NCBI GenBank assembly: GCA_027596075.1
Contig: JADGJC010000130.1
Coordinates: forward strand, 42,409-106,408
Length of the DNA stretch: 64,000 bases
Source: Rhizophlyctis rosea
Lineage: Eukaryota > Chytridiomycota > Chytridiomycetes > Rhizophlyctidales > Rhizophlyctidaceae
Direction: 5' to 3'
Position 1 is the first letter of the stretch; each line of letters starts with the position of its first letter. This document shows, piece after piece, positions 21,813 to 51,771 of this stretch. The notes under the pieces are model-generated. The model searched no databases. It was not told the origin of the DNA and saw nothing but the letters and a program-made list of their open reading frames with translations. The position numbers were made by a program, and so were the translations under genes.

Positions 21813-22538
21813 ATGCCGACCGCTCCTCGAAAACCAGTCAAAACGTATCATAAGCACTACTTCTTCCCTTTCCGCCACACCGGGAGGGCCGGCTCACCCA
21901 GCATGACTGGTGCGAGTTTCGGTTACCCGAGGGACGGCATCCGGGTCACCACAACAAACTGCAAGCTGATCGCGGACCGTTGGGTCCGAGCAAACTTCTT
22001 GAGGCCCAAGGGGGGTGGGACGACGGAATGGAGGTGGAGGGCTTGTGGTCTGGACTGTGAATTTAAGAAGAAGGGGACAGCGCGAGTGCTGCAGCTTGCA
22101 GCACCGACGGGACAGGTGCTGGTGCACCACTTTCCCAGGAAGCAGCTGGGCAACACTGTGCGCCGATTGCTGAAGGACCCCTTGGTCCTGAAAGTCGGTG
22201 TTGGAGTCCAGGACGATGCTCGGGCCTTGCGAGTGGCAGGTGTTGAGGTTGCTGGTGCTGTTGACTCACGGACGGTGATTCGTACTCTCAAAGGGTCGGC
22301 ATATGTGGACCACGGTCTGGAGGGGTTTGCGGATCGGTTGCTGGGAATTGCCATTAAACCTGGCTTCACCTCCGCTTGGGGAGAGCCGCGAGAGATCGAC
22401 AATAAGTCATCTGAGTATGCCGCATGGGACGGCTTCGCCTCCCTCGAAACCTTCCGCGTCCCGCTCGGTCAGCTCAATACTAGGCAATTCGCAGAATGGG
22501 AACAAGCTGCTATCAATGACATGGCCTGCTATCAATGA
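21813..22538 (+). CDS. DEDDy 3'-5' exonuclease-like protein, copy 1 (intact)
   Basis: One exon, 241 aa. The N-terminal block shared with the other copies (FGYPRDGIRV, ADRWVRANF) comes before a ribonuclease-H-like exonuclease fold. Motif I is CGLDCE, motif II VGVGVQDDARALRVAG, and motif III EYAAWDGFASLETF, the YxxxD arrangement that marks DEDDy enzymes. The LLGIAIKPGFTSAWGE part matches the WRN-exonuclease/RNase D type. Metal-dependent 3'-5' removal of nucleotides from RNA or DNA is expected; the substrate is unknown. No helicase or HRDC domain is attached. The C-terminus is altered by a 19-bp tandem duplication that brings in the stop. This is the only one of four copies in the window without a stop or frameshift. 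It opens the first Exo-fragments-SINE-novel-gene unit. Confidence 0.85.
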   Translation: MPTAPRKPVKTYHKHYFFPFRHTGRAGSPSMTGASFGYPRDGIRVTTTNCKLIADRWVRANFLRPKGGGTTEWRWRACGLDCEFKKKGTARVLQLAAPTGQVLVHHFPRKQLGNTVRRLLKDPLVLKVGVGVQDDARALRVAGVEVAGAVDSRTVIRTLKGSAYVDHGLEGFADRLLGIAIKPGFTSAWGEPREIDNKSSEYAAWDGFASLETFRVPLGQLNTRQFAEWEQAAINDMACYQ

Positions 22539-22547
22539 CATGGCATT
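22510..22547 (+). repeat. 19-bp tandem duplication at the exonuclease C-terminus
   Basis: GCTATCAATGACATGGC is repeated with a 19-bp period. The first unit supplies the current end (INDMACYQ, stop). The second, in another frame, would read INDMALNQ, stop. It is a recent slippage that changes only the last few residues. Confidence 0.8.
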
Positions 22548-22557
22548 GAACCAGTAA

Positions 22558-23054
22558 TCTGTCAAGTGAGTGTGTAGTGTCAGTCGGCTAGTCACTAGCG
22601 CGCGTAGTATGCAGTCATCATACATCATGTCTGGGGGCCGGTGGTCAGATGTCATTTTTAATCGGTTCGGGATTCAATCACGTCATTACGAACAATTGAT
22701 GGGCCTGGAGACCATCAGTGGACATACTTGTCTGCGCTCGCTAACCTTGAACCTCTTCTTTTGTCCTTGGTCTCGCAGCTACACCTTCTGCCCGCACCGC
22801 TTCCACATCCATCATAACCTTACTTCACCGAAGCCGCCGAATTAGGAAACCGCATAAACGCTCCTCCCCTTCCGTTTTTCGCTCATACCACAATCTTCAG
22901 TATCTTCGTCGAAATCCGTATTTCATTCTAGCAGCTATTTTGTGTCGCAATCTTTGGATATTGGAGAGGAGTCATAAATTGTAGTCAGAACTCCACGGTG
23001 TAAACGATCAACACCGTCCAATAACGTCCACGGACAGACGAAGAAGTCGACGCC
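22558..23054. other. Intergenic
   Basis: No gene is supported between the exonuclease and the kinase fragment. Confidence 0.4.
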
Positions 23055-24672
23055 ATGTTCCCCACCACCAACTACAAAATAATCGTGCCATACGCATCCT
23101 ACATCGTCATCCGCATCTCCATCTCGCAACCACCTCAATGTTTGCATAAGACGGATCCCTCAGATCCGTACGAAATCCCCCATATCATAGGCAAAGACTC
23201 TTTCGGAGAGGTGATGCCGTGCTTTGATTCATTCTCAACTACTTGAGCTGCTCCGTCTCATCCGTTCCATCTCACATCTCAGGTATACAAAGGTGTCCAT
23301 ACATTGACCGGAGAGCAAGTTGCAATCAACATTGATTTCGAAGGTACCTAAAACTGCCTCGCATATTCCTCTTTCTCAATAATCCAACTGTAATTTGATC
23401 CTCATCAACCATCAATATCAGAAACGGAAGACGACGTAGACGACATCCGTCAAGAAATCGCCATCCTTTCCGAACTCGATTCCGAATGGGTGACACGCTA
23501 CTACGGCTCCTTCGTCAAAGGCACCAAGCTATGGATCATAACGGAGCTGTCTTCGGGCGGGTCTTGTCTAGATCTGGTCTCTTCTTCTCCATACAGCAAG
23601 ACCTCGGAACCATCGTACATGCAGAATGCGGCTGCCGTCCGAGCTCTAATTTTTCCTGCACCCACCCGCATCCACAAACCCCAAACCCCAATCTCAAAAA
23701 GCTACCTCTTTTCGAATCCTTCGTGCCGATCTGCCCTTACCTACGCTTCTTACCCGCATCAATTCCAATTTTACACTAGCACGAACTCGTACACCGATCC
23801 CTACGCATACGCAACCGCTCAATACCAAAACCACAGCCACACTCACAAGCAATACACTTACACTTACGCCTACCCTACACCTCCCTTCCGCTCGCCCCAG
23901 TCCCAGCTCCTAGCGTTCAACAATAGCGATAGCGGGACGGCAGGCGCCGGAAACGGTGGTGGTATGAAGTACGTCCCGACACATGACCATGGGCTATGCG
24001 TGGGGTGTTGTTTTTCTGCAGGGAGGTGTGCGGGGCATCATACGAGGAGGAAGAGTGGAGATGAGAAGGGGAGGAAAGGCTGCGTGGATGGGATGGGGGA
24101 TATGGGTGTTGCGGGCGTCTTTGAGGTTGGTGGTAGAGGAAGTAGTGGTGGTGGAGGGCAATTGTCGTCTACCTTGAATACGACAACGGGAGTAGGCATC
24201 GTACCATCCCGCCTCCAAGCGAGCCACATGAACGTGTTCTCCTGGTGGTCAAGGTATCTTTTTCTCAAAATCCGACTTATATGCACTACGCTTCCGACAC
24301 AACCCACAACGGCATATTCGAGTCTCACCCTTCGTCACTATGATCAACCCCGCCAACACCGCTACCACAACTCCGTTCGCACTCAGCACCAACAGCCCTC
24401 CCAAACGCGAACGCTCCGACACCAACCCTCACAACACTAACGCCACTATCCCAACCTCACCTTTCAAAAAGCAAAGGCCAAACTGCCAACCCAAGCTCGT
24501 CCGCCACCAAGCGTCCCACGGCAGCTTCCGCTACTTTTTCTGCGACGGGTGCGGGAAGGCGTTCGTGAGGAAGGATACGCTGGATCGACGTTGGGGGTTA
24601 ATGGTTGATGTGAGAGTGGGAGGGGTGGGGCAGGCAAGAAGGGGGTGCGGAGGTGCAGATGGGTCGGCATGA
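23055..24672 (+). pseudogene. STE20-type kinase N-lobe fused to a Y/S/P-rich region and one C2H2 finger
   Basis: Three exons (23055-23210, 23283-23343, 23422 onward) splice in frame to give the N-lobe of a STE20/GCK-family kinase: DPSDPYEIPHIIGKDSFGEV, YKGVHTLTGEQVAIN, then DIRQEIAILSELDSEWVTRY, YGSFVKGTKLWIITE, LSSGG. The glycine loop is damaged (GKDSFG for GKGSFG). The ATP-anchoring lysine of VAIK is an asparagine codon (AAC). Right after SGGSCLDL homology stops; there is no C-lobe, HRD or DFG. The frame runs on into a tyrosine/serine/proline-rich region to about 24440. In a third frame at 24340-24672 one zinc-finger-like unit reads YFFCDGCGKAFVRKDTLDRR, with arginine where the first histidine belongs. 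This looks like two unrelated broken genes joined. A product could be made from the first part but could not be an active kinase. Confidence 0.7.
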
Positions 24673-27498: not shown

Positions 27499-29118
27499 AT
27501 GGCCTTGAGAGTCGCTCCATGCGATCATACGCTCGACACAAGCCGGCTTCTTGTCACCCCTCCCGCCAGACTCGTCATAACTCAAATCCCAGAAACCATC
27601 AGCAACGTGAAGTTCAACACCTGGGGATGGCGTCCTGTAGCGAAAATGTTCGCGAAACCCATTTATCACATCCACTTTGACCGCGCGGTGCGCACCACTC
27701 GGAAGAAGGCCAAAGGCTTCGAGTCACTTGACGTGACTTTCAAAAACGGCGGCACAGCGAGAACTATAGCAACAGAGCGTGAGTGGAGGAAGGTATTTGA
27801 TCTGAGGGGTTGCGTGGTACAGGTCATGGATGTTGCCCAGCCTGGGCACTTGGGTGGATCTGGCGGTAGTGGCGGGAACGCGTACGATGATGTGGAGGAG
27901 GCGACTATTGACGTCAGGCCAAATGCCATGGAAGGTGCGTTGAGATATGGAGGTGAAACATGAATTGCGGGGTAACATGATCAATCACATGACAGGGCGG
28001 AAAATGGCATACATAGCCGTGGAGGGACGGCGCACGGTATTCGGTGACAACATTCTGAGACAGCTCGAGACGGATTTCGGCCTGTTGCGTACAGTCGAGA
28101 AAGGTGTCATCTTCTTGACGCACGCTGACGATATGAAAACTTTCAAAGCGACCGAACGATTGGATAGATTGTTGCGCGAGCTCCCCGACGGCAAGGCTGA
28201 GGTATATTTGCCTTCTATGATTGACTGCAAGGAGCACGGCGCATGTGCAGCTCACTTTTCTTTCCTTTGTAGCCGTTCGAAGTTCTGACAGCAGTATACG
28301 GCGAAAGGAACAGTAAAATACCGAACGATGGCACGCAAGTCGGCGACAGCTCCGACGATGAGCCATCCACTAAGAGGTGAGTCCTTCCCTTTCTCGTCAC
28401 CGCTTTCAACTATTCTGACAATACCTTTGATACGCTCCACAGACAGCTCCGAGCCGCGAAAGCTGTCCTGAAGGGTCCCAAACGCAGTGTCATAGACGGG
28501 AAACCGTCTTGGTCCTCATCCTCCTCTTCCTCCGACGACGAATCCTCACAACCCCCTCGAAAGAAACAAAAGGCCACCCACACCCCACACCAGCAACCGC
28601 CTCCTCCTCCCCATCCAGCGCAAAAACCTCAGAAATCAACGCAGCAACCTCAACGCAGTCTACAACACAAACAGCATCTCCGAGCGCAAAAGCACCAGGC
28701 GGGAATAACACATCGTAGGTCTCCTAGAAACACCAATAGTGCGCCAAACCCTTCCTCAGCCCGTTCGACCCCACCCTCCCTCCAACCCCGCGGCTCTAGG
28801 TATCAGCCAAATTCAAGTTCCACAGCCACAAACGCACCACCGCTTCCTCCGCCTCAACCCTCCCATCAACAACGTCCCGTCCCGCCCGCGCAACTACATT
28901 GGCATCCTCGCTTGGATTGGGGAACATACCGTCCAAATCCCTTCAATCCCACTGGATTCGCACAATTCGTCCCCATCACCATCCAATCCGCCCCCCAAGT
29001 CCCTCCTCCCCAACATCCCCGCCCCCCAACAGCTCAACCTCAACCCGCTCAACCTCCTCGTACCACCACGCAGCCTACGCCAGCTGTTGCGGCTCGTGTC
29101 GTCAAGAGAAAGAAGTGA
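27499..29118 (+). CDS. Novel nuclear-looking family, copy 1 (intact, four exons)
   Basis: Exons 27499-27934, 27996-28201, 28273-28376, 28443-29118; 473 aa; intron phases 1, 0, 2. Domain A (about residues 20-115) has PARLVITQIPETI, WRPVAKMF, FESLDVTFKNGGTART and RGCVVQVMD. Domain B (exon 2) has AYIAVEGRRTVFGDNIL, ETDFGLLR, VIFLTHADD. Exon 3 gives a short linker with VYGERNSKIPNDG and an acidic SSDDE. The last exon is a basic patch (PPRKKQK) and a long P/Q/S-rich disordered tail. The same order, motifs and intron phases recur at 38.3 kb, and domain B onward recurs at 50.5 kb. I do not recognise the family. Domain A has a faint RRM-like strand pattern (inference only). A DNA- or RNA-associated nuclear protein is a guess from the basic and low-complexity tail. 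Confidence 0.75.
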
Positions 29119-29920: not shown

Positions 29921-29975
29921 TATGGCACCGCCTGCCCTTTGCGGAAGGAGAGGACGCGTAAGCAGTCTGGAGGTG
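29921..29975 (+). repeat. Dispersed repeat R, copy 1
   Basis: The block CTGCCCTTTGCGGA...GACGCGT..GCAG recurs at 44.33-44.43 and 52.71-52.81 kb. It may be a remnant of a longer element or a decayed exon. Confidence 0.45.
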
Positions 29976-31020
29976 ATCTGTCCGGCGATCAGCTTCCACA
30001 TGCGCGATGAGCGAAAGCAACGAAAGTTGAAGTAATAAGTTCACAGGCGATGTTGAACTCATCTCCGCTGACGCAGATATTACGTCGAAAGAGGAAGTCT
30101 CGATGCGCTCTGTGAACATGAGCCCGCACCTATCACCTAGCTCCGCAAATCGCCAGTAAGGAAGGAAGCCGAATATATCAAATGGAATGGCGATTTCAAC
30201 GCCCGGCCTTGTTTTACAGTCCCCAAACACAAATACAAAACAAGACGTTTCCGACTCAATACCCTATGTTACAATTTCATCAAGCCATACATGCTATCAA
30301 AATGGCGTAGAAACGAAGGTGAAACAGAACGGGAAGGAAAGTATTGCTGAAGCGCTACACAATACAATCTCTAACTCATCAATGGATATGGAGTTGGGAA
30401 TGCCAGGGTGGTACCGGGCTTGCATCATTCAAGCACCAATTTAATCCGTCATGTTATTCCGGTGGGAAAAATGAGTTCAGAAAGCAAGGGGTCGGGCAGG
30501 GATTCACCGCCAGACACATCAGCAACACAACATTCTCAGACAATCCAACGTCCAATTGCCGCCGTCGAGTCACGACTACCATTCCATATGAATGGAAATT
30601 CTCTGCCCCATCCGCTAAAGACCTGCTGCAATTGGAATTATGGATCCGATGGCGATTTGGATTCCTCACTATTCCTCATGCCGCACAATTACTTTCAACG
30701 ACCACAACGCCCACATCCTCCCCTCCTCCAGTACAGCCCGTGCATCGGTCGCTGTCGATTCGCCATCGGTCCCTCTCACGTCCACGAGTACCAGCAGCAC
30801 TACCAACAGCATCGATACAGTTGTACCCTTACCTGACTCGGAACCCTCAACCCCACACTCCCATCAGACTCCCCATTACTGTCCCATCTACCACTTCTAC
30901 CTGCATCATCCTGCGCAAGCATCGCATCCTAAGCAGCTAATTCGCGATAGCACTTCTTTAGGATATTTTTTCTGCGTGAAATTGAGCATTCAGGATATGC
31001 AACGGGAGAAAGGAAAGAAT
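29965..31020 (+). repeat. Duplicated segment D, copy 1
   Basis: About 1 kb matches 42.11-43.09 kb in order: GGAGGTGATC.GTCCGGC.ATCAG; TGTGAACATGAGC; GCGATTTCAACGCCCGG; ACTCATCAATGG; GCAAGGGG..GGGCAGG; CAATTGCCGCCGTCGAG; TATGGATCCGA. A shared peptide-like frame reads QRPQRPHPPLLQYSPCI here and QRPQRPHSRLLQYNSCI in the other copy. It may carry a decayed or fast-changing S/T/P-rich gene (frames at 30408-30836 and 30640-31068). The product is unknown. Confidence 0.65.
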
Positions 31021-31254
31021 GAGAAAAGTGACTTTCTGGAGCTAGGAAGTCTTCAAGTTGGGCTGTAGACGAAGGGTGGGCCTGACGCGAGGGGTCCTTG
31101 TGCAACCGCATCGGCACTAAAGCTAAATTTGGCCAAATGATGCTTGGAGTCCAGACTTGGAGGACTCAAGGAGGGTGGGAAAATTGGGAACAAGCAAAGT
31201 GGTTCCCATAGTCCCATATTTCAGACTTCCAATCTCCATGGTTGACCACCATAT
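31021..31254. other. Short intergenic stretch before exonuclease copy 2
   Basis: Leader region of the next gene. The exonuclease frame stays open upstream of the chosen ATG, with an alternative ATG at 31238, but no family similarity is seen there. Confidence 0.4.
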
Positions 31255-31260
31255 TTCCCA
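31255..31260 (+). promoter_or_regulatory. TTCCCA upstream of exonuclease copy 2
   Basis: The hexamer is 19 nt before the ATG at 31280, the same spacing as in copy 1. This supports 31280 over the upstream ATG at 31238. Confidence 0.35.
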
Positions 31261-31279
31261 TCGTGACAGAATCCCCAAT

Positions 31280-32044
31280 ATGAGCCGCACCCGCTTCATC
31301 AGCTCATACTGGTCCAGGCGCCTTGTCCGGCTGCGTCCCTCAAGGGACGGGGCAATGACGGCAAGGGGGTCTTTCGGATACCGACGAAATGGGTTAGACG
31401 TCTTCGCAACCAACGACGTGCTCCTCGCGGATCAATGGATAAAACGCAACTTTGAGATCACGGTCCCAAATGGTGTGCGCCGGTGGAGGCACAAAATCTG
31501 CGGATTGGACTGTGAGAAGGGTCGCAGAGACACATTGAAGTGTGTCCAATTGGCTGCGCCTAGTGGGGACGTACTCGTCTACCACTGCGTCAGGAAGAAC
31601 TTTCCACAAAGCATGCGGCGGCTAATGCAATCCACGGAACTGATCAAGACGGGAGAGGGAGTGGAGCAAGATGCTCAGCTGATGCGACAGGCGGGCTTCG
31701 TACATATCAACGGAATCGTCGAACTCTCCACCGTCGTCAACCTCTATCGCGAACATGTCCTCCAGCAACCTGGACCACATCAACCTCAAAAACTCGTAGC
31801 AATGGCGCATGAGTTCTTAGGAATCTTCATCAAGAACGATTTCGATTCTGCATGGGGCTACACAGACGCCCTCGACGAAGAATCCGTGATATATGCTTCC
31901 CTTGATGCGTTCGCAAGCTTAAAAGTACCACCGCTTGCCGCTTCATGTGCGGCCAATGTTCGAGAGGGCGGCGCGGATCCGCCAGGCTGCATTCCGATAG
32001 GTAAGTTCTTTGTTTACGAAAAGGAGGAGACGAAGTCACAATGA
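31280..32044 (+). pseudogene. DEDDy 3'-5' exonuclease-like gene, copy 2 (C-terminal frameshift)
   Basis: The start was chosen from alignment with the other copies and the TTCCCA spacing. The conserved N-terminal block FGYRRNGLDVF..., motif I CGLDCEKG, motif II GVEQDAQLMRQAG, LGIFIKNDFDSAWG and motif III VIYASLDAFASL are all in one frame. Right after FASLK (about 31923) a 1-nt shift leaves the family frame. The original frame continues as YHRLPLHVRPMFERAARIR and stops at 32000. The annotated frame instead runs to 32044 with unrelated residues. All catalytic positions come before the shift, so a product with a replaced tail might still fold and be active. It opens the second unit. Confidence 0.75.
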
Positions 32045-32499: not shown

Positions 32500-32885
32500 C
32501 ATGAACATCACAGCTTCATTGGCTTCTTCGGAGCTTCCCTCCATTTCAAGGGCGCCTTGGTCGTCTATGTCGTTCTCATCCTTCCATGCTTGATTGGCGG
32601 CATTGTCCTGGGCTACAACTCGTTCAAGTATGTCCATGATGTCCATTTCGAAACAAACGGGCCGCAGACGTGGCCTGCTATGTATTCGAATAGGTCGATT
32701 GATGCGATTCAGAGTGTGGTACGTATTTGGCCAATGTACAAGTCACCCTTTCCCCGCCAGCACTAAACCACAACTTCCCATCCGTCAATCGCAGCTCCAC
32801 TGTTGCGGCTCCCTCTCTCTCACCATGCAAGTTGGTTCTGGCCGTTGGCTTCGAGCGGTGTTGGTTGTGGTTCAAGGCTGGGTGA
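32500..32885 (+). pseudogene. Tetraspanin-like gene fragment
   Basis: Exon 32500-32718 encodes a membrane helix (GALVVYVVLILPCLIGGIVL) and a loop ending SIDAIQSV. A 76-nt GT-AG intron (32719-32794) joins it to LHCCGSLSLT. The helix followed by an extracellular loop with CCG is the tetraspanin hallmark. The later cysteines and the last helix are missing; sequence after 32885 belongs to other gene pieces. Family assignment is tentative. Confidence 0.45.
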
Positions 32886-33077
32886 GTCTCTTTTTTTTAA
32901 ATCTTGTTGAAGCGTGCTCGGAAAATTAACGCCGTTCGTTGTTCAGCGAAAGCGGCATGTCCAAGCTCACCGACTTGTGCAAGAATGCGAACCCTGAAGT
33001 CGTTGCGGAGTATATCTGGGTTCAAGGCGGCTTCAACGTTTTTGGTTTGGAGTTCGTGGAGGAGATTCGGTGTGGGT

Positions 33078-33530
33078 AGATGGGATATTCAGGCCTCGTG
33101 CCCATGGTTATACACGAGAAGATCAGCGAACTCGCACGGATGTACCAACTCTTCGGCCGAGTTTCCAACGGTCACTCCATGATGCGGACCGCTCTTTCCG
33201 TTCCGGCTAAGGATGTGAATGAGGTATCGGGCGGGCTGGCGCACGGGCTGGATGCATCAGTTTCCAAGCAACGTTCACCGTCCTCTGTGGATGATGACAC
33301 TGCGGGATCAGCGCGAGGCATGGGGGCGGAATCATTTTCTGCGGCCGTAGCACGAGCAGATCCGATCCAGTGGGTGGAGGGCATGTTGGCGTTGAAGCAG
33401 AAGTTTGATATGATTTTGGACAAGGCGTTTGGGATGGACCGGGCGTTCCAGAATGAGATGAACCCGGCGTTGGAGTTTGCAGTAGATCAGGATTTGAAAG
33501 CATTGCGGCTGCGTGGAAGGAGAGGATGAA
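33078..33530 (+). pseudogene. Cullin gene fragment
   Basis: A single frame reads GLVPMVIHEKISELARMYQLF, GRVSNG, then DPIQWVEGMLALKQKFDMIL and KAFGMDRAFQNEMNPALEF. This is the end of the cullin-repeat region of the E3 ligase scaffold, just before the cullin-homology domain. That domain, which binds the RING protein, and the neddylation site are absent. A stop precedes the segment in the frame carrying the upstream exon. It is a piece of about 150 residues out of about 750. Confidence 0.75.
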
Positions 33531-33839
33531 GACGAGTGTTTTCCATTTGGACATATGTCAAGGATCTGAGAAGATGATGGAAGCTCAACTCGAAAAGCTT
33601 GGAGCGGTAAGTTCATGTGGCGAAGTCAAGTTCTAGTGGGAATGGGGGGCGGGAAATATAGGCCGGGTGGGCTGGAGGGAGGAAGCGGGGAAGGGAGGAG
33701 CTAATCAGGTGTGAAGTCAACCTTTCGTGAAAGGGTTCGCCGCCGTAGTCCATGATCAATCTGACTCGATAACGCGTCTCATGTTCAATGCCTAAAATTG
33801 ATCCACACAGATTTTTTACGCAAGCTATTTCAGCAAAGT

Positions 33840-35140: not shown

Positions 35141-35174
35141 TGCCCAGTCTATGCGGGTGCCCAGTCTATGCGGG
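35141..35174 (+). repeat. 17-bp tandem duplication
   Basis: TGCCCAGTCTATGCGGG occurs twice in a row inside the intron-like stretch after the last SAPS exon. Confidence 0.8.
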
Positions 35175-39879: not shown

Positions 39880-40410
39880 TCGGCGAAATCGATAGTCATG
39901 CTTAGTCTAAAGTTTCCTACGCGGTTTTCTTCTTTTATTCTCTGCTCTATCCTTTCTTCATTTTCACAGCTTAGTGTCATAGTTTCCAGAATAATCCCCT
40001 ACTGCATAGCAGTTTTCTCTCTTTTCTTTCGTTTCCTTCTCTTTTCTTTCCCTTCTCTTCATTCCGTCGTAGCTGTCGACTTTTTCACATCGTCTAGTGC
40101 GCAGCAAACGGCGCCGGATCGGATATCAGTTGTTCTGTAGAATTATGTAGTTTGTATCATACTGAGGGCTGGAGCTGTCGGCGGTGGGAACATGGGCGCG
40201 GGGACGGTGTCGAGACTTGTATATATATCTGATTTGTATGTAGATTTGCACTTATGTAGATTTGCACTTGATCGTTTGACGGGTGGGATTTGGGTTATGC
40301 TCACAGTATAGTGGCGGATAGGTAGCGGGTGCACGGGGACTCACGAAGGTGGTTTTTTTTAGTTTATCTTTCGTATTAGTCTGATGGGTTGTTCCTAGGG
40401 ATGGCGGGCA
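39880..40410 (+). repeat. Duplicated 3' flank, copy 1
   Basis: About 500 bp matches 51.84-52.35 kb in order: CAGCTTAGT, pyrimidine-rich tract, CC.TCGTAGC, GATCGG.TATCAGTTG.TCTGTAGA, TGTATCATA, ACAGTATAGTGG, GGATAGGTAG, GATGGGTTGTTCC, GGGATGGCG. The matching DNA is non-coding, so a segment was copied and not only the gene. Confidence 0.75.
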
Positions 40411-42112
40411 TGAAGGAACAGTTTTCCACTTTTTTTTCACTCCTCAGAGCCGTTGATTGTCTTTCCAAGCTTGAAATCACCATGGGAAGCCGAATGTGGA
40501 TGTGAAAGCAAGGTCTCTTTTGGAATCGGTCGCATCTCAAAGGCCTGCCCTCATGTTTGGCATCTAAAGTTCGTCGAGGCCTCGCCTGGAAGCCCCTGCG
40601 CATGGCAGAAGATTGGGATGGCCTCTTTGGGTCAGGAGCAGATGACGGATATTTGAAACGCATTCTCGACGTCTTCTTCTTCTTTAGGAGCACATGTCTC
40701 TTGCATTACGTACTAGATTGTGCCGCCTGTCGGAACGCAGGGAGAGTTGTCCGTAACACGCTAAACAGAGTACCTTGGCGTGCGCCGTATCTTCTGCAAC
40801 AAGCCCTTTCCATGAAGTGAGGCTGCAATGAATCTCTTGATTATCACTATCCACAGCTAAGAATATCCGTTGAACTATTATCCTGCCAGTAACAGACTTT
40901 GGCGACCTCAAAGAAATGATTGCATGATGGGCCAGCGTCATCTATCCTTCGTAGTGTCTATACTCTTCCGTTCGACTTTTTGGCGAAATTTGGTATGAGA
41001 CTCTTCGTTGATTCATAATCATCAGCATGAAGTTCATGATACTTTCACTCTTAGCAATGGGGATATGAAGACCTTGAGTATGGCATTACAGCATCCTTAT
41101 AATGCAGTAGTGCTTCAAGTCAATGAATGTGGGAGATGTTCATGATTCTATGTCATTGCATTCCTTGTTTTCCGTCAACAGGGATCGAGATAGGCCATCA
41201 GAACATGAATGTGACCCTTCTGGAGCTTCGGAATCTGAACTCTTTGAGGCACATGATCATAGGTTGCTCAGGGTTGGATGGGAATTTGGCGTCGTGCAGT
41301 TCATGTGGACAAGCCGACCTGGGAAAGGGGAACTTACCATGGGAAGTCAGTGACTCAGGGGAAGAGGATGCTAATACCTTCTGCGATTGTAAACGGGGGT
41401 GCGTTATCTTGATCACCATTCACCCCTGACACTGTTGGAGACAATTACTATCGTTTACGTCGAGGTAAACTCCCTTGTTCCAGACGATGCGTCCCCAGCT
41501 GTCAGCAGGGTTGAGGACGAGGCTGACAGCAATAGGCGAGTCTTCATATATTCCGTCATTGCAGCCGTATTTACGTCCACCCGTTTTCAATGGGTCACTT
41601 GAATTTGCAAGCGACAACGGGCGGCGCAAAGGCTTTAAATTGTCCGAAACGGTTTTTCCAACGTACCGCTTCCCTTTCCTTCTCTGATGATACTACAACA
41701 ACAAATTCTACCTGATCCAACCCAGAGCCCTTCACCAATCCAAACAACAGGAACGACATCACTAATGCAGAAGCAAAATGCGGAAGTGACGCATCGCAGT
41801 GCGCTGAGGAAACCCTAAAGCGTCGCTGCCACATCCGCAACCATCACTCCAGCACATCCAGGACGAATACAGCTACTCGGTTCTCCTTCTGTCCACCAAC
41901 CACTCCTCCTTCCCAACTTCCTTCGCAACTGGAAAATGCATGCTGGTCATGGTCGACACAGTCCAGGCACATCCCGACAAGATCAAAGCTGTAAGCTTCA
42001 TCTATATATCAATGGTCATGCATGCCAGCAGCACAGACTACATGGCTCCAGGATAGGAAAAGCACCTCACTCACTCCATATCAATTCACATCAAATTCCA
42101 TCAATTCGTAGG
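40411..42112. other. Intergenic, no supported gene
   Basis: Overlapping short frames only. No motif, RNA or repeat stands out. Confidence 0.4.
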
Positions 42113-43087
42113 CAGACTGGAGGTGATCCGTCCGGCCATCAGATTTCACACATGAACTTGAAGCAGCTCGAGTTGAGAGGTGATGTTTTCATTTCCGCTA
42201 ACGGTTATATTACGTCAGGAAGTTTCCATGACGCTTTGTGAACATGAGCTGATACCTACCTCCGCAAGTCACCAGTGAGGTAGGACACAAATACATCTGG
42301 CTTTGTAAACATGAGCTGATACCTACCTCCGCAAGTCACCAGTGAGGTAGGATATAATTACATCAATTGGACGGGCAATTTCAACGCCCGGAATCATTCC
42401 CTAGTCCCCAAATACAAAGACAAAACGAGACGCTTCAGACTTAACGCTCTATATTACAACTTTCATCAAGATGCACACTATATACTTGAACTGGGCATAG
42501 GAACGAATAACGTGGAAGGGAATGGGAAGGGAAGGATAATGCTGATGTGCTACAAAACAAAACCTACAACTCATCAATGGGTATGATGCCAGGGTAGTAG
42601 CCAGTTGGCATCATTCAAGGACCAATTTATACTGGTTATGTCACCCGGGTGGGGAGTATGAACTTAAGACGCAAGGGGCTGGGCAGGGCGTCTACAAGCA
42701 GACATATCAGCAACGACATCCTCAGAAAAAATCTAACGACGCAATTGCCGCCGTCGAGCCCTGACCACGGCTGGAGATGGATAGAGAATAAGATGCATTA
42801 TGGATCCGACCATGATTTGAATTCCACACTGGCTCCTCATGCTGACAATGATTGCCCTCAACGACCACAACGGCCGCATTCCCGCCTCCTTCAGTACAAC
42901 TCGTGTATCACTTGCCGGCCAGGCGGCCTCACTCATCACCATGACGACCACCATCATCACCAGCACCAATAGCAGCGCCAAGATGACCGAATCTCCGAAG
43001 CAGTTTCCAAACCCTCAACCTCTTTTTCAGACTGATGAATACATTCCCGCATACCCCGCGTCATCTCGCGAATCCATTGCGGCCTGA
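42113..43087 (+). repeat. Duplicated segment D, copy 2
   Basis: Counterpart of 29.97-31.02 kb, same orientation. It differs by the 67-bp tandem repeat at 42.23-42.36 kb. The shared peptide-like frame (YGSDHDLNST, QRPQRPHSRLLQYNSCI) lies at 42649-42972. A second shared frame, NDHNGRIPASFSTTR here and NDHNAHILPSSSTAR in the other copy, lies at about 42857-43087. Confidence 0.65.
42233..42362 (+). repeat. 67-bp tandem repeat, two units
   Basis: Units start at 42233 and 42300. Each contains AACATGAGCTGATACCTACC followed by TCCGCAAGTCACCAGTGAGG. The matching place in segment D copy 1 has a single diverged unit, so the duplication came after the segment was copied. Confidence 0.85.
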
Positions 43088-44425: not shown

Positions 44426-44860
44426 TGATGTACCGCATTCTCCGGCAAGAAGGTGTTCGCGGTGGGTGTTGTGAATGTAGAGTGATTCATCATTAAATCA
44501 CATCTTGTGGGGTCCAGACCGTCCTTTGACGGCCAAAAGTTATATCAACGACTTCAACGTGATGACTTTGTAGATTCAGTACTTGAGTAGTGTGAAGTGT
44601 GAGAGTTGTGAGTTTCCGGTAACAAGGAGTACAGGGTAACTACTGTAACTTTCCCCAAGTCTCCCAATCTCCACCCCGAATAAATATGAGTCCGATCGGG
44701 CGAACTTGTATCACAAACAAAACACTTTGGACAAATGGAGGGAAATTGGGCTCCACATCTGCCAGTGGACTCGGTGGGGTGCTGGCTGCTGACTGCTCAG
44801 TGCTGAGTGTGGGAATTTTTGGGAATTTTGGGCTCTTTCGCTGCGACCCACATTTCTATG
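44426..44860. other. Intergenic before exonuclease copy 3
   Basis: No gene is supported. GGGAATTTT is repeated near 44812-44829. Confidence 0.4.
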
Positions 44861-44866
44861 TTCCCA
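44861..44866 (+). promoter_or_regulatory. TTCCCA upstream of exonuclease copy 3
   Basis: The hexamer is 24 nt before the ATG at 44891. It is the third plus-strand copy of this arrangement. Confidence 0.35.
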
Positions 44867-44890
44867 CTGTCATCGTTGAACAAAGCGACA

Positions 44891-45601
44891 ATGCCTGCAT
44901 ACAGCAAATATCTCGTTGTTTCGCTTCCAATCTCTGACCCCAACCGAGCTGTCACCCCCGCCCAACTTGGTTACGAACGGGATGGGTTGGACGTCCCGTG
45001 CACGTCTGACAAGGTGACGGCGGACAAGTGGGTTCGGGAGACGTGCATCCACACAGCAGCCAATGGAGTTAAGGGGTGGAGGTGGAGGGTGTTGGGACTC
45101 GATGTGGAAATGGGGAAATGAGGAACCGCGAAGTGTCTTCTTCTGGCAACACCTACCGGCCGGGTACTGGTTTTTCACACAGTTAGGAAGCAGTACGGCA
45201 ATACACTGAGGAGGATGCTCAAGGACGTGGCGGTTCTCAAGGTTGGCGAGGGGATTGATCAAGATGTTGAGAGATTGCGACGAGCGGGTGTCGAGATCAA
45301 TGGCGCAGTGGAGCTTCGGACACTTCTAGACATTTACCAGCGGGAAGATCCCGCCAATGCAACCACCACACACCGCCTAAAAGTCGTCTCGCACCACTAT
45401 CTGGGCATCGCTATCAAACCCGACTTCACTTCTGTTTGGGGCAGGACCGCCCCGCTCGACGACATCTCGATTGAGTATGCGGCACTTGATGCCTTTGCAT
45501 CACTGGAAGTCTTCAGGGTGGTATACAACCGTGTATCAGTCCCAGGAAGGGCAGAATGGGAGCAAACAGCCCGTGCCCATATTGCTGCCAACCGCGCTTG
45601 A
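44891..45601 (+). pseudogene. DEDDy 3'-5' exonuclease-like gene, copy 3 (premature TGA)
   Basis: The ATG at 44891 gives MPAYSKYLVV and the shared LGYERDGLDV block. Motif I is LGLDVEMGK, followed at once by TGA (45119-45121) where the intact copy has an arginine- or lysine-type codon. The frame then stays open for 160 codons with GTAKCLLLATPTGRVLVFHT, motif II GEGIDQDVERLRRAG, LGIAIKPDFTSVWG and motif III IEYAALDAFASLEVF. A single stop in an otherwise clean frame suggests recent loss, a sequencing error, or recoding. It opens the third unit. Confidence 0.75.
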
Positions 45602-45978
45602 GGCAAGTTGCACAGTGTGTCTTTACGAATCTTGAAGCCACTGGGTGACTACATGATTGTCATGCTGGTCTGTTGAACCTATGCATCATTGGGTGTCAGT
45701 AGGATGGGTGGCTTGAAACATCAAGGGGAACTCGCGCGCTCGCTAACCTGTCATCTTTCTTCTCCTCTTTTACAGGCGGTCGGCAGCGATGATGGGGAAC
45801 GTGTGTAATTTTAAATTGGGGTTGGCGGGTGGGGTTGATTCGGAGTAGTTAGTTCATATGTGCATATCTTCGTTCCTTCGGCCGCCATCTCATCAGCGGC
45901 ATATGAGTCGTTATCTGTCGTTCGCGATACTTTCATCATCACACATACGTATCCATCACCCGATCGCGGGTTCGCATC
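45602..45978. other. Intergenic
   Basis: Nothing supported. Confidence 0.4.
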
Positions 45979-46510
45979 ATGTTCAACCGAAAGAAAAATC
46001 TTGTGCATCCGATGATGGGGCTCATGGACAACGCAGCGGCGGGCAAAGCGCCGACACCCCAAGCAAACGTATCGAACAGGAACAACAACAACGTCGTCAA
46101 TGGCATCCCGATCAGCAACGAGTCTGATGCAACAGTGGTCATCACGGTTTTGGGCAACGATGGGAAGACTGGGAAGACTGGGCAGCCGGTGGATCTCTCT
46201 AACACCAACTACAAAGTGATTGGGAATGGGTCTTTTAGGGTCGTGTTCCAGGCAAAGATCATTGACACGGGAGAGTACGGAGCAATCAAGAAAGTTTTGC
46301 AGGACAATCTGTTCAAGGTAAGAACCGGCTCGAGCACGCAATCATCAACATATGGGACTTATGGACTTCCACTTAGAATTGCGAACTACACATCGTGCAC
46401 CTGGTATCACATTCCAACATCGTCGCCCTCAAGTATTATTTCTACTCGCACTGTTAGGAGAGACGAAGTGTGCAGGAGTTTCTGCAATTCTTTGCTTGAG
46501 AGGTAAGTCT
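45979..46510 (+). pseudogene. GSK3-type kinase gene fragment
   Basis: Exon 45979-46317 begins with ATG and encodes a Q/N-containing leader, then the start of a glycogen synthase kinase 3 domain: TVLGNDGKTGKTGQPVDL, YKVIGNGSFRVVFQAKI, AIKKVLQD. The ATP-binding lysine is kept but the glycine loop has R for the last G (GNGSFR). After a GTAAGA intron, exon 2 (from 46377) reads NCELHIVHLVSHSNIVALKY, YFYSHC, then TAG. The family's NREL is altered to NCEL. Remnants in another frame (DEVCRSF) follow. All of the C-lobe is missing. It is a genomic copy with its intron. Confidence 0.8.
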
Positions 46511-46689
46511 TCTCATCGTATCTGATGATGCTGGACACATGTGCTCATCACATCATTCTATGATTAAGCTGAACACAGAGCGCAATGAGATTACGGATCT
46601 GTTCAAGGGAGCAAAATGTGAAGCGGTATGTGGATTTGTGCTGTTTTCAGGGTGCTACCTTTGGTACATGTAAGATATACTGATTTGTT

Positions 46690-47220
46690 TGCATGACTTA
46701 GATCGTTGACGTACGGGTTATCTGCGTACAAGGCAGTCTAGCACCGACGTCCGAACATCGGACCAGATATGAACAACCCAACGAGTCCAATGTTGCCAAG
46801 AGATCCGGCATGAGGACGCATTCTGCGGTTGGTGTCTTCTCCTTACCCCTTGCGCAACAGTTCACCATACGAACGTTTCAGTCTTCACCAATTCACTAAT
46901 GTACCAATCCTCCTCTCTCCAAGACCTGACATAGTCCGACCTTGAAGACATCGAAACCTGGCCCGCTTCCCCACGCGCTTTTTGGCTCCAAAGTCACGTC
47001 CGAATTCAACCACCTCAACTCCCTCACCCTCATCGCGCGCGCCCACCAGCTCGTGCAGGAAGGTTACAAGTACATGTTCCCCGACGAGAACCTCGTCACG
47101 GTATGGTGCGCGCCGAATTACTGTTAGAGGTGGGAATGTCGCGAGTATTATGGCTATACAGGGGGGGACGCAGGTCGATGAGCAGAGCTTCAAGATCTTA
47201 TCAGTACCCCGTATTTCTTG
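46690..47220 (+). pseudogene. PP2A/PP4/PP6-type phosphatase catalytic subunit fragment
   Basis: Decayed text IVDVRVICVQGSLAP stands for the family's IIDGRVLCVHGGLSP near 46702-46746. Then come [14 protein letters not shown] in one frame and [16 protein letters not shown] in another. Next is [15 protein letters not shown] and [10 protein letters not shown], followed by a stop and frameshift where YRCGNVASIM should follow; GNVASIMA continues in the next frame. These are the C-terminal signatures of PP2A-like serine/threonine phosphatases, closest in wording to PP6/SIT4. At least three frame breaks are present. The first half with the metal-binding GDxHG and GNHE motifs is absent. Confidence 0.8.
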
Positions 47221-47978
47221 TAGGGGGTTGTGGTGGGTGGGTGTTGGGTCGATGTGTGTGATGGTAGGGGTGACGGCTTACGTTATATATTTGCAAGGTG
47301 GGGGAGATAAGCTATCTTACGTTATGAGGTTGTGTACTTTGTTTTAGTCTCTATTTTGTATGATATTGGTTTGGTCGAAAAAGATGATATTGATATGGCA
47401 TAATTGTCAAAAAGATGGTGCATAGTCCATTCTTAGTTGGAGATTCGGCTGCAGTTCGAATCGCCAATTGGACGGCGGTTGGTCGAGGACATTGGTTAAC
47501 GCCATCTCCAAAAGAACGTGCTGTTCTTCTACACTGAAATACTCGGTAACATGCAAAGTTATGTCAGTGGCATTGGACGATGAAGATAGAATCAGGGGGG
47601 CTGACGTCACGAGAAAAGGTAGGAATAAGGTTCAATTACTTATCTTCATTGTTGGACGGATTGCCTACACCAATATACAGCAGCATATCTCCCATGGATG
47701 GGGGCAACGGACAGCTTGTTGTTAAATCATGTCTGAGTGCTGTCGATATGCGGCTACTGCTAAGCAAGCATCCGGTCCGTTAGTGAGGTTGATGAGGGGA
47801 CGGGCGAGGATTCAAGTTTTACTCAGTCATTCTATTGGGTTGGAAGCAGCGGAGTGATTTAGTAATTGTGATGATGGGAGTGCTTCGGTGGCGAGTTTGG
47901 GGAGTGATGTTAATGAAGGGGTTTTTTTTCTCGTACCTATGTTTGTCCTTCCAACGGTGAATTGTAGAAATCAATGTA
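47221..47978. other. Intergenic, nothing supported
   Basis: Short frames on both strands without motifs. Confidence 0.4.
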
Positions 47979-48285
47979 TCGGCATCTTAACTAGAAAAGC
48001 ATGTCATGCCCGATTTGGAGGCATATGGATTGCAGTCGTGAAGTCAATTCACAGGCAACTTAATTCGAAGCCTGATGTTGAGGCATATGGATTGCAGTTA
48101 TGGACAATGTGTGGTGCGGGAACCGTCAATGAAGGTCCACGCATGCAAGGAAATGAAGTGAATTCACCGGCATCTTAAGTTGAAGAGGATGTCATCCCCG
48201 ATGTTGAGGCATATGGATTGCAGTTATGGACAATGTGTGGTGCGGAACCGTCAATGAAGGTCACCGCATGCAAGGAAATGAAGGG
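47979..48285 (+). repeat. Minisatellite-like tandem array, about 118-bp unit
   Basis: Three units share GAGGCATATGGATTGCAGT. Units 2 and 3 also share TTATGGACAATGTGTGGTGC and CATGCAAGGAAATGAAG. Unit 1 lacks the inner part. The array ends against the SINE-like element at 48288. Confidence 0.8.
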
Positions 48286-48287
48286 GG

Positions 48288-48396
48288 AAAAAAAAAGGCT
48301 CACGGGTCCAACTGAGGGATTCAAACCCAGGCTTCTCGATCATGCGAGCGTGTCTGGCAACGAAGTCCAACCTGCTACCCACTGCGCGATGAGCCA
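48288..48396 (-). repeat. tRNA-derived SINE-like element (type B), copy 2
   Basis: On the minus strand, GGCTCA (complement of 48390-48395) can pair with TGAGCC (complement of 48297-48302) as an acceptor-like stem. Between them are an A-box region GCGCAGTGGGTAGC, an anticodon-arm-like TTGG...CCAG, a variable-arm hairpin CTCG-CATGAT-CGAG and a B-box GGGTTTGAATCCC. A run of nine T follows directly (complement of 48288-48296). The extra 12 or so nt between the T-arm and the acceptor argue against a working tRNA. It is nearly identical, inverted, to 49642-49765. Confidence 0.65.
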
Positions 48397-49641
48397 ATTA
48401 CACAATCGAAACAACGCGCGATTTACTTCTCAATCAAACCCGTAACGTATTCCCCAGGGTCCATCAGCCAAGTCGAGTGGCGCAGGAATGTGGCACAGTC
48501 ATAACAATCTTCGGATCCAACGATGGAAGTTGAACTTTTCCTGTAGCTTCCTGTTCAATACTTTGGAGAAGGACCGTGGACAGTGTAGACGCTATGTACA
48601 CAGAGACGCGAGGCAATTGAACCAAACCCAACCTGAGCGTCATGAAATTCATGAGTGGTCCAAATGGCCTGGTTAGCGCAACATCACGGTTGAGTGAACA
48701 CTCTGCCAGGACCGTTCGCCGCTTCTGAGCTGTTCAACTCCGATTTCTGAAGTCACAAAACCTCTGAAGGTCTTCGCGCTCGGATCGATTTTGTGGTCCG
48801 GTAAGCAGGTAATTGCTAACAGTTGCTTCCGCGCATTGACTCGATTGTAAACAATTTCTTGCGATGTTGTGAGTGGTCAGCACCAGATCGATGTCAGGGG
48901 CAAATCTCTCAAAGACGTCCACGGATAATGGTCGGTTGAAGCCGAAGACGTTGACATGAATTCGTCAAATAAGTGTGGTCATTTTTTGCATCATTATGCA
49001 CGCGGAAATCATCCATGCCCCCCAGTACAGCAAGGCGGAGGTTTGGGGAGCTCCTCAATGTGGGTGGGCAAGTTCATCACCTTCTTCTCAAATTTGAAGG
49101 TCTCCATTTCGAGGTGATGCATACACGGCAGACATGAATAGAATCAATATTTGTGCCACCTTCTTGACCGTGCCCAATTTGAATCACTTGATGGGTGTTT
49201 GGATTCACGTGTCAGTGTGTTTGATTCCCAAATGTGATCGGCGGTGGATGTGAACGTTCAGGCCTCTTCGTTATCACACAATGCGGAGAGTTCACAGACT
49301 CGCAAGGGCTACTGGGGTGGCATGAGTCTCGTTGATATATTCATGTCGTCGGCTAAAAAAGTGAAAACAATGGTGGTTTCCGGAAATTTCCAAGGGGACT
49401 TGGGCAATACCTGCTGCTGTAACATCAAGTAAAATCCCCCCAAACCCAGCAAAGGGCGGAGAAGAGAATGGGAAGTTTAAAGATTGTGATGAATCCGACT
49501 GTTGAGGGCGAAGGGTTGAGACTCCACTCGTGTCCACTGAACCCCAAAGTGGCACAGTCATAATAAGGCTGTGTCAAGTGCTGACCAATCCGTTTTGGCC
49601 AGTTAGGGACAGTATTAAGTTACGGGTTTCAGTTTTCAGTA
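48397..49641. other. Intergenic between two inverted SINE-like copies
   Basis: GTGGCACAGTCATAA occurs upstream of both SINE-like copies, on the same strand at 48499 and 49551. No gene is supported. Confidence 0.4.
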
Positions 49642-49765
49642 CGAGTCATGGCGCAGTGGGTAGCAGGTTGGATGTCGTTACCAGAGACGCTCGCATGATC
49701 GAGAAGCCTGGGTTTGAATCCCTCAGTTGGACCCTCATGATTCTTTTGATTTTTGTTTTTTTGCA
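49642..49765 (+). repeat. tRNA-derived SINE-like element (type B), copy 3
   Basis: A-box GCGCAGTGGGTAGC near 49651, hairpin CTCGCATGATCGAG, B-box GGGTTTGAATCCC (49710-49722), T-runs from 49750. The end stem (GAGTCATG with CTCATGATTC) has diverged from copy 2 but can still pair with G-T wobbles. It shares about 85 nt of near identity with copy 2. Confidence 0.65.
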
Positions 49766-50472
49766 TACGAACATCCAAAGGACCCTCATGTTCTTTTCCT
49801 TTTTTGATTCTGCATGCAAACATAGAAAATGTATTCAAATATATGCGCTTTTTGGCAATATTCGAACCTCTTCCAAGGCCTTCCGTTGATATACCCAACT
49901 GCACGGCTGTCAACTCTGCGAGTTGGGAATTACCATCTAATGCGGAATTCTGTATTCCCTACCCATGGAAAGTTTTCACAATGCAGTTCCTTTCAAGCGG
50001 TATGTTGTAATATGTGGCAGCAACCGAATCATGGCATGGAAAAGACGCAGGGTCGGTCAGCAACGAGTCAAATGCAATGGGCGCGGATGGAAAATGGGCC
50101 TCAGCCACTGTCATTACTGACGATGCAGTTTCTAAGTTCGATCCCCGCAGATTGCGAGGTGATCAAAGTCGCGATAAACTCTTCAACATCTGCACCGTGC
50201 CACTTTTCATCGAGGACCAGCACCACTTGACCGCAAAAAGCAATCCGTCATGACATAATGCCACGCGTACGTGCCCCCTTTTGCGCGTTCTGGGCCCAAG
50301 GATGAGATTCCTTAGCTCAGGCGGGAATTGAGGGGCAAGTCAAAGCTATCAACCAGCCGCGCCCACAAGATTTGGGTCGGGGCGTCACTGGGGTCCCTCA
50401 CGATTATAGTACCAAACTGCGTAGTGCGAACGCATAGTTGCATTGGGGGGGATTGTGTTGCAAAAAGGGGAA
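49766..50472. other. Intergenic upstream of novel-family copy 3
   Basis: No recognisable domain A exon of the novel family is found here, although copies 1 and 2 have one. Confidence 0.4.
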
Positions 50473-51771
50473 ATGGAGCCCCGCCATCAAGTCCTTGTTG
50501 ACGTGCCAAGTCATTTGCGAGGGTGGACAGTCCACAAGATCCGTGATTGCAAGGACAGCGCCTATATCAAGATTGAAGGGCATCGGACTGCCCGCGGTGA
50601 CACGATCCTAGAGCGGATCACAAAGTCATATGGCCTGTACCGCTACAAGGAAGAGGGAGACGAGATCGAACTGCGGCATCCAACAGATGATAATAAGGTG
50701 TTTGAAGCGGGAGAGGAATTTGCCACCGAGTGGAAGTCGGTCCCCAAGACAGAGCCAAGGTGAGACATCACTACTCGTGGTTTGACATATGGTTAGGTAT
50801 CTCAGTATGACTTCCCATCAGCCATACGCGAGTTTTATGACGTTCCACGGCAGTCGGCAGTATCGGATACATAATGACGGAAATCCGGTGGATGACTCGG
50901 GTGACGATGACAATGAGCCACAGCGAGAGTTCGTATCAGACAATTGATATTTTCCCATTCTCGCCGTCATCGTCAACTTTGAGTAGGTTTACTAACAAGC
51001 TGAAATAGGCCGCGCAAGCGGAAGTTCGATGGCCAAGGCACGCAGCAATTTGCTCCCTCCTCAACCTCGACACAAGCGAATCCTGCAAAACGACAGCGTA
51101 CCAACAACCAGCAACAACCACCACCATCAACCCACTCGCAACTTCCTACTCACTCCGCTCGCGGTAGAGGGCGCGGACGTCAACCTACAACAACCTCCCA
51201 CCAGCACCAACAACAACAGCAACAACACGCACAACAAAACCAGCAGCACTACCCATCACACGCGCAACAGCACCACCACTCATACCCAATTCCGGGAGTA
51301 GGAAATGCATTCTACTTCTCAGGCGTTCAATCTTTCTTCGCGCCCAACTACACAGCAGCATTCTATCCCTCCTCCGCCTACGTACCTTCAACTTATTGGA
51401 CGACCACCGCATATCCACCTCCATGGGCGGCCCCAACCCCTCCACAACCGACTCCCTCCACCCAACCCGCAACCCCCGCCCAATCCGCTCCCTCCGGGCC
51501 CTCCGTGCTCGAACTATTGAAAAATGCGTATGGATCAGACGATGAGGACGACACCGCAGCACCACCTCCCTCCTCGCAACCGCCCACCACACCCACGACG
51601 GCCCCGCCCTCCTCCTCCTCCACTACGGCTCACGCCGCCGTCGCAGCAGAACCAGCTGCAGCCTCCACCACTCAAAGTACCACCAACAGCGGGAAGAGCA
51701 ATACTGTAGATGGGACCAACATTCCAAACCCACCTCCAAACCCTCAATCCCCGCCAACGGCCGACGAATAG
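50473..51771 (+). CDS. Novel nuclear-looking family, copy 3 (domain A missing)
   Basis: Exons 50473-50759, 50806-50928, 51009-51771; 390 aa. The acceptor at 50805 (CTCAG) was preferred to the one at 50821, which gives a stop. It starts MEPRHQVLVDVPSHLRG, which may be a remnant of domain A's first strand, then goes straight into domain B: AYIKIEGHRTARGDTILERI, TKSYGLYRY, DEIELRHPTDD. Next are FHGSRQYRIHNDG, an acidic SGDDDNE and PRKRKF. A long H/Q/N/P/S-rich tail ends near an acidic SDDEDD. The second intron has the same phase (2) as in copies 1 and 2 but an unusual GTTCGT donor. The frame is intact. Function is unknown; the order of parts suggests the same role as copy 1 with a shortened N-terminus. 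Confidence 0.7.

Follow-up and report, generated by a model that had tools for sequence, protein, structure and literature searches.

Class 2 templated sequence insertions (human TSIPs) carry short pieces of distant origin, leave the donor intact, create no target-site duplication (TSD), and show microhomology at their junctions; experimental class 2 insertions are enriched for transcribed sequence (excerpts of PMC5110952). In yeast, distant templated insertions bring in nuclear pieces by end joining, and some events comprise at least two pieces (excerpts of PMC11724301, PMC10802722). Transposons offer two further precedents: Helitron filler-DNA capture, a stepwise, DNA-level accumulation of gene pieces in a mosaic (excerpts of PMC6544945, PMC3288121, PMC4289320); and transduplication by terminal inverted repeat (TIR) elements in Pyrenophora tritici-repentis, in which gene pieces enter a composite that needs TIRs and many copies (excerpts of PMC3538342). 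The subject here is a 64-kb stretch of the Rhizophlyctis rosea genome (the window), in which pieces of 18 host genes have collected behind four copies of an exonuclease gene. R. rosea is a free-living soil chytrid. A literature search (titles only, with most subscription papers outside it) found no title on such a locus in this or any other chytrid.

The window spans C36:42409-106408 of the assembly (44.1 Mb in 634 contigs, here given C numbers), and its right edge is the end of the contig. Genome DNA searches used 56.9 of its 64 kb (leaving out 17001-22538, 31151-32044, and 38251-38933) and identified four mosaics of gene fragments, each starting about 260-780 bp after an exonuclease, the inverted copy included. 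Twenty-four aligned fragments, from 18 source genes, tile 89% of the four patches (8,635 of 9,690 bp, the patch edges being defined by the fragments themselves). They are 79-92% identical to their sources outside gaps, and many of those gaps are not multiples of three. Since a matching source stretch for each fragment lies on another contig, the pieces in the window are copies, and not the "broken housekeeping genes" of a first-pass annotation. That annotation was right to place gene fragments between exonuclease and novel gene, and to see an eIF2-alpha piece downstream of the inverted exonuclease (with DCP2, C90, and LRR pieces beside it), but the patches are more extensive than it described. 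Its suggestion that host-gene pieces are taken up is supported. The patches and the exonucleases that precede them are as follows, in window coordinates.

7597-8465, minus strand: inverted exonuclease copy, in two frames (a frame break and a TAG); protein match.
4479-7232, minus strand: patch 0 as a whole, with C436, LRR, C90, eIF2-alpha, and DCP2 pieces, all sense to the inverted exonuclease.
Within 4479-7232, minus strand: piece of the C436 gene; sense by open reading frame (ORF) only.
Within 4479-7232, minus strand: LRR piece (C173); domain match.
Within 4479-7232, minus strand: piece of the C90 gene in two parts, 610 bp of source missing; sense by ORF only.
5427-6279, minus strand: eIF2-alpha piece (C34, S1 domain); domain match.
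Within 4479-7232, minus strand: DCP2 piece (C613) in two parts, 170 bp of source missing; domain or structure match.
21813-22538, plus strand: exonuclease copy 1, DNA_pol_A_exo1, WRN/EXD2-like, DEDDy residues kept, open frame; Pfam and alignment.
23025-24625, plus strand: patch 1, with pieces of SF3B1 (C62), a STE20-type kinase (C16), and a C2H2 zinc-finger gene (C31, three pieces), all sense.
31157-32044, plus strand: exonuclease copy 2 (contained in HDV00_001605), its frame open but its C-terminus lost; Pfam and alignment.
32824-36136, plus strand: patch 2 as a whole.
32824-33056, plus strand: piece from an unknown gene (C94); sense judged from the ORF alone.
33064-33502, plus strand: cullin piece (C158), sense; domain match.
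33502-33647, plus strand: DBF4 piece a (C177), sense; similarity enters a source intron, to 33700.
33818-33856, plus strand: left part of the SAPS piece (C631), sense.
33855-34657, plus strand: PRP2/DHX16-like DEAH helicase piece (C616) with introns, inside the SAPS piece, sense; HA2 domain.
34658-35144, plus strand: right part of the SAPS piece (C631), sense.
35175-35666, plus strand: DBF4 piece b (C177), sense.
35666-35972, plus strand: MFS transporter piece (C434), sense, between DBF4 b and c; match weak after 35906.
35991-36136, plus strand: DBF4 piece c (zinc finger, C177), sense.
About 44846-45598, plus strand: exonuclease copy 3, one in-frame TGA; protein match.
45861-47882, plus strand: patch 3 as a whole.
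45861-46471, plus strand: GSK3 piece (C630), sense; kinase domain.
46472-46652, plus strand: ubiquitin-specific protease (USP) piece (C73), directly adjoining GSK3, in sense, with a weak UCH match.
46698-47566, plus strand: PP2A catalytic subunit piece (C63), sense, extending past the source stop codon by about 310 bp.
47715-47882, plus strand: ABC transporter piece (C233), sense.

Pfam names the sources as cullin, DBF4, MFS, C2H2, eIF2-alpha, SF3B1, GSK3 kinase, LRR, ABC, SAPS, and DEAH HA2. Below its cut-offs fall the PP2A phosphatase domain (21.1 versus 21.5 bits) and the pieces that we take, from their motifs, to be USP (E 0.013) and a STE20-type kinase (E 0.1); the C90 frames have no Pfam match. 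Separate matches identified DCP2, PP2A, GSK3, and the PRP2/DHX16-like helicase. None of the 24 fragments lies in the searched window outside the four patches, where the other hits were short ones to C629, C354, C374, and C159, a C120 tRNA-like repeat, and tandem or dispersed repeats. The count excludes the left SAPS piece (39 bp); the far MFS and eIF2-alpha pieces; C159 (24810-24963, 70%, no coding strand assigned), C629 (8504-8684, 81%), C354, and C374; the C120 repeat hits; and paralogue or overlapping hits to C11, C312, C265, C608, C268, and C433. Among the matches listed, no source gene is common to two patches.

All 18 source genes are sense to the preceding exonuclease, including those behind the inverted copy. 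For 15 genes a domain or structure match set the coding strand (a weak one for USP and STE20); for the C94, C90, and C436 genes it was the longer open frame only, and the margin for C94 is small (478 versus 432 codons). If the pieces are independent, the two-sided chance of an all-sense set is 8e-6 for the 18 genes and 6e-5 for the 15 backed ones.

Introns are retained in at least seven pieces (DEAH, eIF2-alpha, GSK3, USP, PP2A, DBF4, and SAPS), and no precisely spliced piece was seen, frames having been read by eye. Retrocopies of spliced mRNA were rejected on account of these introns. As far as the frames show, pieces reach at most about 120 bp upstream of a start codon, and PP2A alone extends beyond a stop codon. 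The PP2A stretch beyond the stop is either 3′ untranslated region or evidence for DNA templates.

Six junctions abut with an overlap of 0-4 bp: cullin/DBF4 at 33502; SAPS/DEAH at 33855; DBF4/MFS at 35666; GSK3/USP at 46471/46472; and two internal ones, in C90 at 6624 and in DCP2 at 4744-4747. The internal gaps of C90 and DCP2 are not splicing as far as the frames show, and they have short shared bases at their ends. The DEAH piece is cleanly inserted in a SAPS exon: with the piece taken out, the two SAPS flanks form one alignment to their source that lacks about 3 bp. Collinearity suggests two further nestings. SAPS lies between collinear DBF4 pieces a and b (source similarity runs to 1106, in an intron, and again from 1501), and MFS between collinear pieces b and c. 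Inspection of the junction contexts by eye revealed no TSD, but divergence of 8-21% blurs the junctions.

In several respects these pieces are like class 2 TSIPs: they are short and distant, with source stretches still present on other contigs and, as far as the blurred junctions can show, no TSD and short overlaps. Excerpts of the TSIP report, however, describe individual insertions and do not mention orientation (PMC5110952), whereas the R. rosea pieces pile up at four homologous places, partly nested, all sense, and with introns kept. The yeast insertions also differ. Their sources are genome-wide, inverted pairs are frequent in some mutants, and excerpts of the reports mention no sense bias (PMC11724301, PMC10802722).

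The patches occupy a repeated locus. Self-comparison of protein and DNA confirmed the order proposed by the first-pass annotation, exonuclease, host-gene fragments, and a novel (orphan) gene, three times on the plus strand. Within the window, the main exonuclease protein pairs match with E-values of 2e-26 to 6e-46, and orphan pairs with 6e-16 and 1e-10. The DNA repeats 29957-30746/42107-42909 and 39946-40395/51871-52317 (E down to 1e-63) are 67-69% identical, at a spacing of about 12 kb. This repetition is beyond chance. Moreover, the units contain a decayed match to the 3′ tail of a CSC1-like gene (E 5.6e-9), and that gene precedes unit 1. Because this tail and the orphan flank are common to the units, in register, the units arose by an old tandem (segmental) duplication.

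17206-21047, plus strand: CSC1/OSCA-like channel gene, in exons, left neighbour of unit 1; Pfam RSN1_TM, PHM7_cyt, and RSN1_7TM.
27499-29115, plus strand: orphan copy 1, with domain 1 (27499-27960), domain 2 (27944-28285), and a low-complexity tail; end approximate.
29957-30746, plus strand: start of unit 2, a decayed remnant that includes the 3′ tail of the CSC1-like gene and recurs at 42107-42909; DNA and protein repeat.
38310-39034, plus strand: orphan copy 2; by eye, its frame breaks within domain 2.
39946-40395, plus strand: flank 3′ of orphan copy 2, repeated at 51871-52317 (67%); DNA repeat.
42107-42909, plus strand: start of unit 3, a remnant with the CSC1-like 3′ tail; DNA and protein repeat.
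50425-51768, plus strand: orphan copy 3, second domain and low-complexity tail recognised.
51871-52317, plus strand: flank 3′ of orphan copy 3; DNA repeat.

(Coding genes here contain introns, so single open frames understate gene extent.) The pair is linked once more on C279, with the orphan at C279:162666 and the exonuclease at C279:164605 on the same strand, the orphan upstream and 1.6 kb between the matched stretches. This linkage indicates that exonuclease and orphan are truly a linked pair, and orphan then exonuclease may be its natural order; joint inheritance is the sole thing shown for the link. The window therefore holds an old tandem array of the exonuclease/orphan pair, one of two alternatives (a serially duplicated locus) that the first-pass annotation had offered. 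By eye, no fragments were seen at the C279 pair.

The exonuclease copies are far more diverged than the fragments. The shared unit flanks, at 67-69%, are likewise far more diverged, so the pieces postdate the duplications and arrived independently in each copy. For 17 of the 24 fragments, in which exons were delimited by eye, the three codon positions show mismatches of 164/1625, 113/1626, and 272/1619 (10.1, 7.0, and 16.8%). This is the pattern of a freely drifting copy set against a source changing mostly silently, and the pieces show no sign of constraint. Transfer from the working genes of a relative was rejected, since codon positions 1 and 2 are not spared. Also rejected was C>T asymmetry as a sign of sense transcription: the overall excess (228/2191 C>T versus 152/2261 G>A) is gone at positions 1 and 2 (49/786 versus 49/876, p 0.60).

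The fragments might instead belong to genuine multi-exon or fusion genes, or result from an error of assembly. The deposited annotation leans that way, in that protein HDV00_001605 (31157 to about 33100) fuses exonuclease copy 2 with downstream mosaic pieces. However, the many source contigs, 8-21% substitution, gaps not in multiples of three, and lack of any constraint sign make this explanation extremely improbable, and a mis-assembly would join near-identical sequence. The fusion gene model is probably spurious.

Capture by a transposon, either a Helitron or a TIR element with the exonuclease as cargo or enzyme, is very unlikely. Both routes exist in fungi (excerpts of PMC4289320, PMC3538342), but the only inverted-repeat arms found were of 14-20 nt at 80-93%, none of them framing a patch; Helitron-type 3′ ends (CTRR, hairpin) number 11 in the window versus 10-15 in five shuffles, and none in the four patch 3′ flanks is followed by T. 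No transposase, Rep, or reverse transcriptase domain occurs among the 30 window proteins scanned, a subset of its ORFs, and no mosaic has a second copy in the genome among the matches listed. Like Helitron filler-DNA capture, the R. rosea locus is a mosaic built of gene pieces, but no Helitron ends or copies were found and the scanned proteins include no Rep-helicase (compare excerpts of PMC6544945, PMC3288121, PMC4289320). Like the P. tritici-repentis case (excerpts of PMC3538342), it is a fungal composite with gene pieces, but neither TIRs nor many copies were found.

The other first-pass alternative, composite mobile elements with exonuclease and novel protein as their own genes, is not supported. 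The annotation had asked whether common ends or TSDs surround each unit; no framing ends or enzyme domains were found in what was scanned, and only four orphan copies were found, by searches that could miss copies without the first domain. The greater divergence of the exonuclease copies and the C279 pair, where no fragments were seen by eye, also count against a mobile element.

Other loci were compared. A 7-kb region of C218 with another exonuclease showed no gene mosaic in the genome DNA search: its hits comprise a 106-bp element present in many copies, a local repeat, one match of 123 bp at 86% (C113), and one weak match. (The 106-bp element, at about 8682-8787 of locus L052, is up to 99% conserved in at least 12 genome copies and is perhaps a young short interspersed element, SINE.) In the window itself, 53-64 kb yielded two dispersed repeats only, and 8.7-17 kb yielded two hits of 111-128 bp; a third, of 181 bp, lies just upstream of the inverted exonuclease. 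(The dispersed repeats, at 54514-54850, around an 83-bp tandem repeat, and at 63373-63727, together have at least 48 partial genome copies.) Inspection by eye, which is insensitive, revealed no housekeeping pieces at C279, C618, C218, and 20 kb of C36 left of the window, and nothing clear in the first 1.5 kb or so behind 16 further exonuclease matches. WD-repeat-like frames downstream of the exonuclease at locus L013 were taken, by eye, as a native gene.

This anatomy is firm, and a mechanism can be inferred from it. Both the source bias toward gene bodies and the sense bias point to transcription, which suggests that transcription governs either the arrival or the survival of pieces. Quite possibly, and as the tentatively preferred reading, breaks at these loci were patched repeatedly with pieces of transcribed genes, and antisense inserts were either kept out or eliminated. 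The stretch 3′ of each exonuclease would have been broken and patched with short host-gene pieces many times, well after the copies had separated; at least one piece later took up another inside it. End joining would capture the patches at breaks, in the manner of class 2 templated sequence insertion, and they would come from transcribed units, as either reverse-transcribed unspliced RNA or transcription-exposed DNA. Presumably only sense inserts persist: if a piece of an essential gene lay antisense, read-through from the exonuclease would turn it into a silencing RNA. RNA-derived patches, as in class 2 insertions (excerpts of PMC5110952), for which the sense, genic, and unspliced pieces speak only indirectly, would explain the gene-body bias, and an RNA-silencing purge would explain the sense bias. 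Argonaute genes are present in the genome (22 Piwi matches on 11 contigs, some with internal stops).

Several points weigh against break-patching of this kind. The retained introns are as compatible with genomic DNA as with unspliced RNA, and the PP2A piece continues past its stop codon. End joining alone is orientation-blind, so a second factor must be assumed. Many neighbouring pieces are not abutting but 7 to about 110 unassigned bases apart, and neither of the nestings suggested in DBF4 is a clean insertion, since source sequence goes unrecognised at both (about 390 bp from a to b, 362 bp from b to c). The scarcity of intergenic sources can be set only against assumed gene densities. Finally, the model does not explain why the patches lie behind these exonucleases and not others.

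Plain DNA-level patching would draw random genomic pieces into breaks by end joining or strand annealing, with the sense bias due wholly to selection against antisense. The retained introns, the PP2A read past the stop codon, the 0-4 bp overlaps at abutting junctions, and the presence of Argonautes all agree with it, and distant templated insertions from across the yeast nuclear genome are known (excerpts of PMC11724301, PMC10802722). However, nearly all recognised fragments are genic, whereas a sense-only filter should leave many intergenic ones, and noncoding sequence of this age is still alignable: the PP2A stretch past the stop is about 83% identical outside gaps. By way of illustration, at assumed gene densities of 50-80%, the probability of at least 18 genic sources among an assumed 20 is 2e-7 to 0.02 with the sense-only filter, and 2e-4 to 0.2 without it. 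Plain patching is possible but rather unlikely.

Alternatively, chimerism could arise in RNA: a reverse transcriptase on the exonuclease transcript jumps to nascent pre-mRNAs, and the chimeric complementary DNA recombines back, making sense orientation automatic. Genic sources, sense-only pieces, and short junction overlaps would follow, and the forward collinear skips in C90, DCP2, C2H2, and DBF4 fit as well. Re-entry into SAPS at nearly the same base after the DEAH piece is hard to achieve by template jumping, though, and no spliced piece was seen. This route is decidedly doubtful. A further reading, in which the exonuclease loci are a transcription-coupled sink where nascent unspliced transcripts are written back, always in sense, into exonuclease 3′ regions, is unlikely too. 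Read-through transcription, and perhaps the exonuclease itself, would be the acceptor, and in the mosaic germline RNA-templated DNA repair in a fungus would have left its fossil record.

The exonucleases reported at 21.8, 31.3, and 44.9 kb on the plus strand, and the inverted one at 7.6 kb, are all borne out by protein matches. Copies 1 and 2 match DNA_pol_A_exo1 (PF01612) at 24.9 and 24.8 bits (cut-off 23.6), and the family profile matches the WRN and EXD2 structures with E of about 1e-10. Alignment shows that copies 1 and 2 retain the DEDDy catalytic residues; the other two copies (3 and 4) are broken. In domain and catalytic residues the proteins are like WRN/EXD2-type 3′-5′ exonucleases, but they are short and lack a helicase. 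RNase_T exonucleases (PF00929) were rejected as the family (0 of 5 matches on C36). The exonuclease query gave 14 match rows in the genome, and the family seems expanded in R. rosea. More diverged 3′-5′ exonucleases cluster on C47 (38310, 41133, 80777, 89637) and C625 (46771, 91775, 99486, 105314). Protein searches among candidates preselected by shared words (at most 8000 in one) found no relatives outside R. rosea, and none was confirmed in viral contigs.

The novel-family genes reported at 27.5, 38.3, and 50.5 kb start at 27499, 38310, and 50425, the third recognised by its second domain and tail only. The orphan query found three genome matches (two in the window, one on C279), and self-comparison added the third window copy, for a total of four; copies without the first domain could escape detection. 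Pfam gives no significant match for the protein. Searches with copy 2 yielded no homologue in viral contigs or in the protein collection, where its own record was missed too and length limits may hide relatives. In an AlphaFold model from three sequences (predicted local distance difference test score, pLDDT, 59), the order of strands and helices would fit a ferredoxin-like fold. That order suggested an RNA recognition motif (RRM), a reading not borne out by Pfam or by Foldseek, which gave no PDB match below E 0.001 and no RRM among the 50 matches listed.

The SINE-like elements of the first-pass annotation hold up in part. tRNA-like stretches are readable at four sites, 25.7 (plus), 36.65 (minus), 48.3 (minus), and 49.65 kb (plus), but only the last two, an inverted pair (48304-48392/49646-49734) with further hits on C120, are alike (94%). 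No other two of the four align, ARAGORN called no tRNA, and no Rfam family reached its gathering score. A SINE as a constant part of the unit was accordingly rejected. A local array of 40-70 nt repeats (47967-48283) adjoins the third patch. At the window's edges lie a PF02458 transferase gene (1233-2707) and a thioredoxin-domain gene (53110-55091), which looks like a protein disulfide isomerase.

Transposons, or break repair that is blind to orientation, are the usual explanations for the capture of host-gene pieces. Pieces of 18 genes, all sense, unspliced, and in the same relative place in four copies, provide a testable case in which transcription may decide whether a patch enters or survives. 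Moreover, the mapped junctions lie in an early-diverging fungus, where RNA-templated repair and the purging of antisense inserts could be separated.

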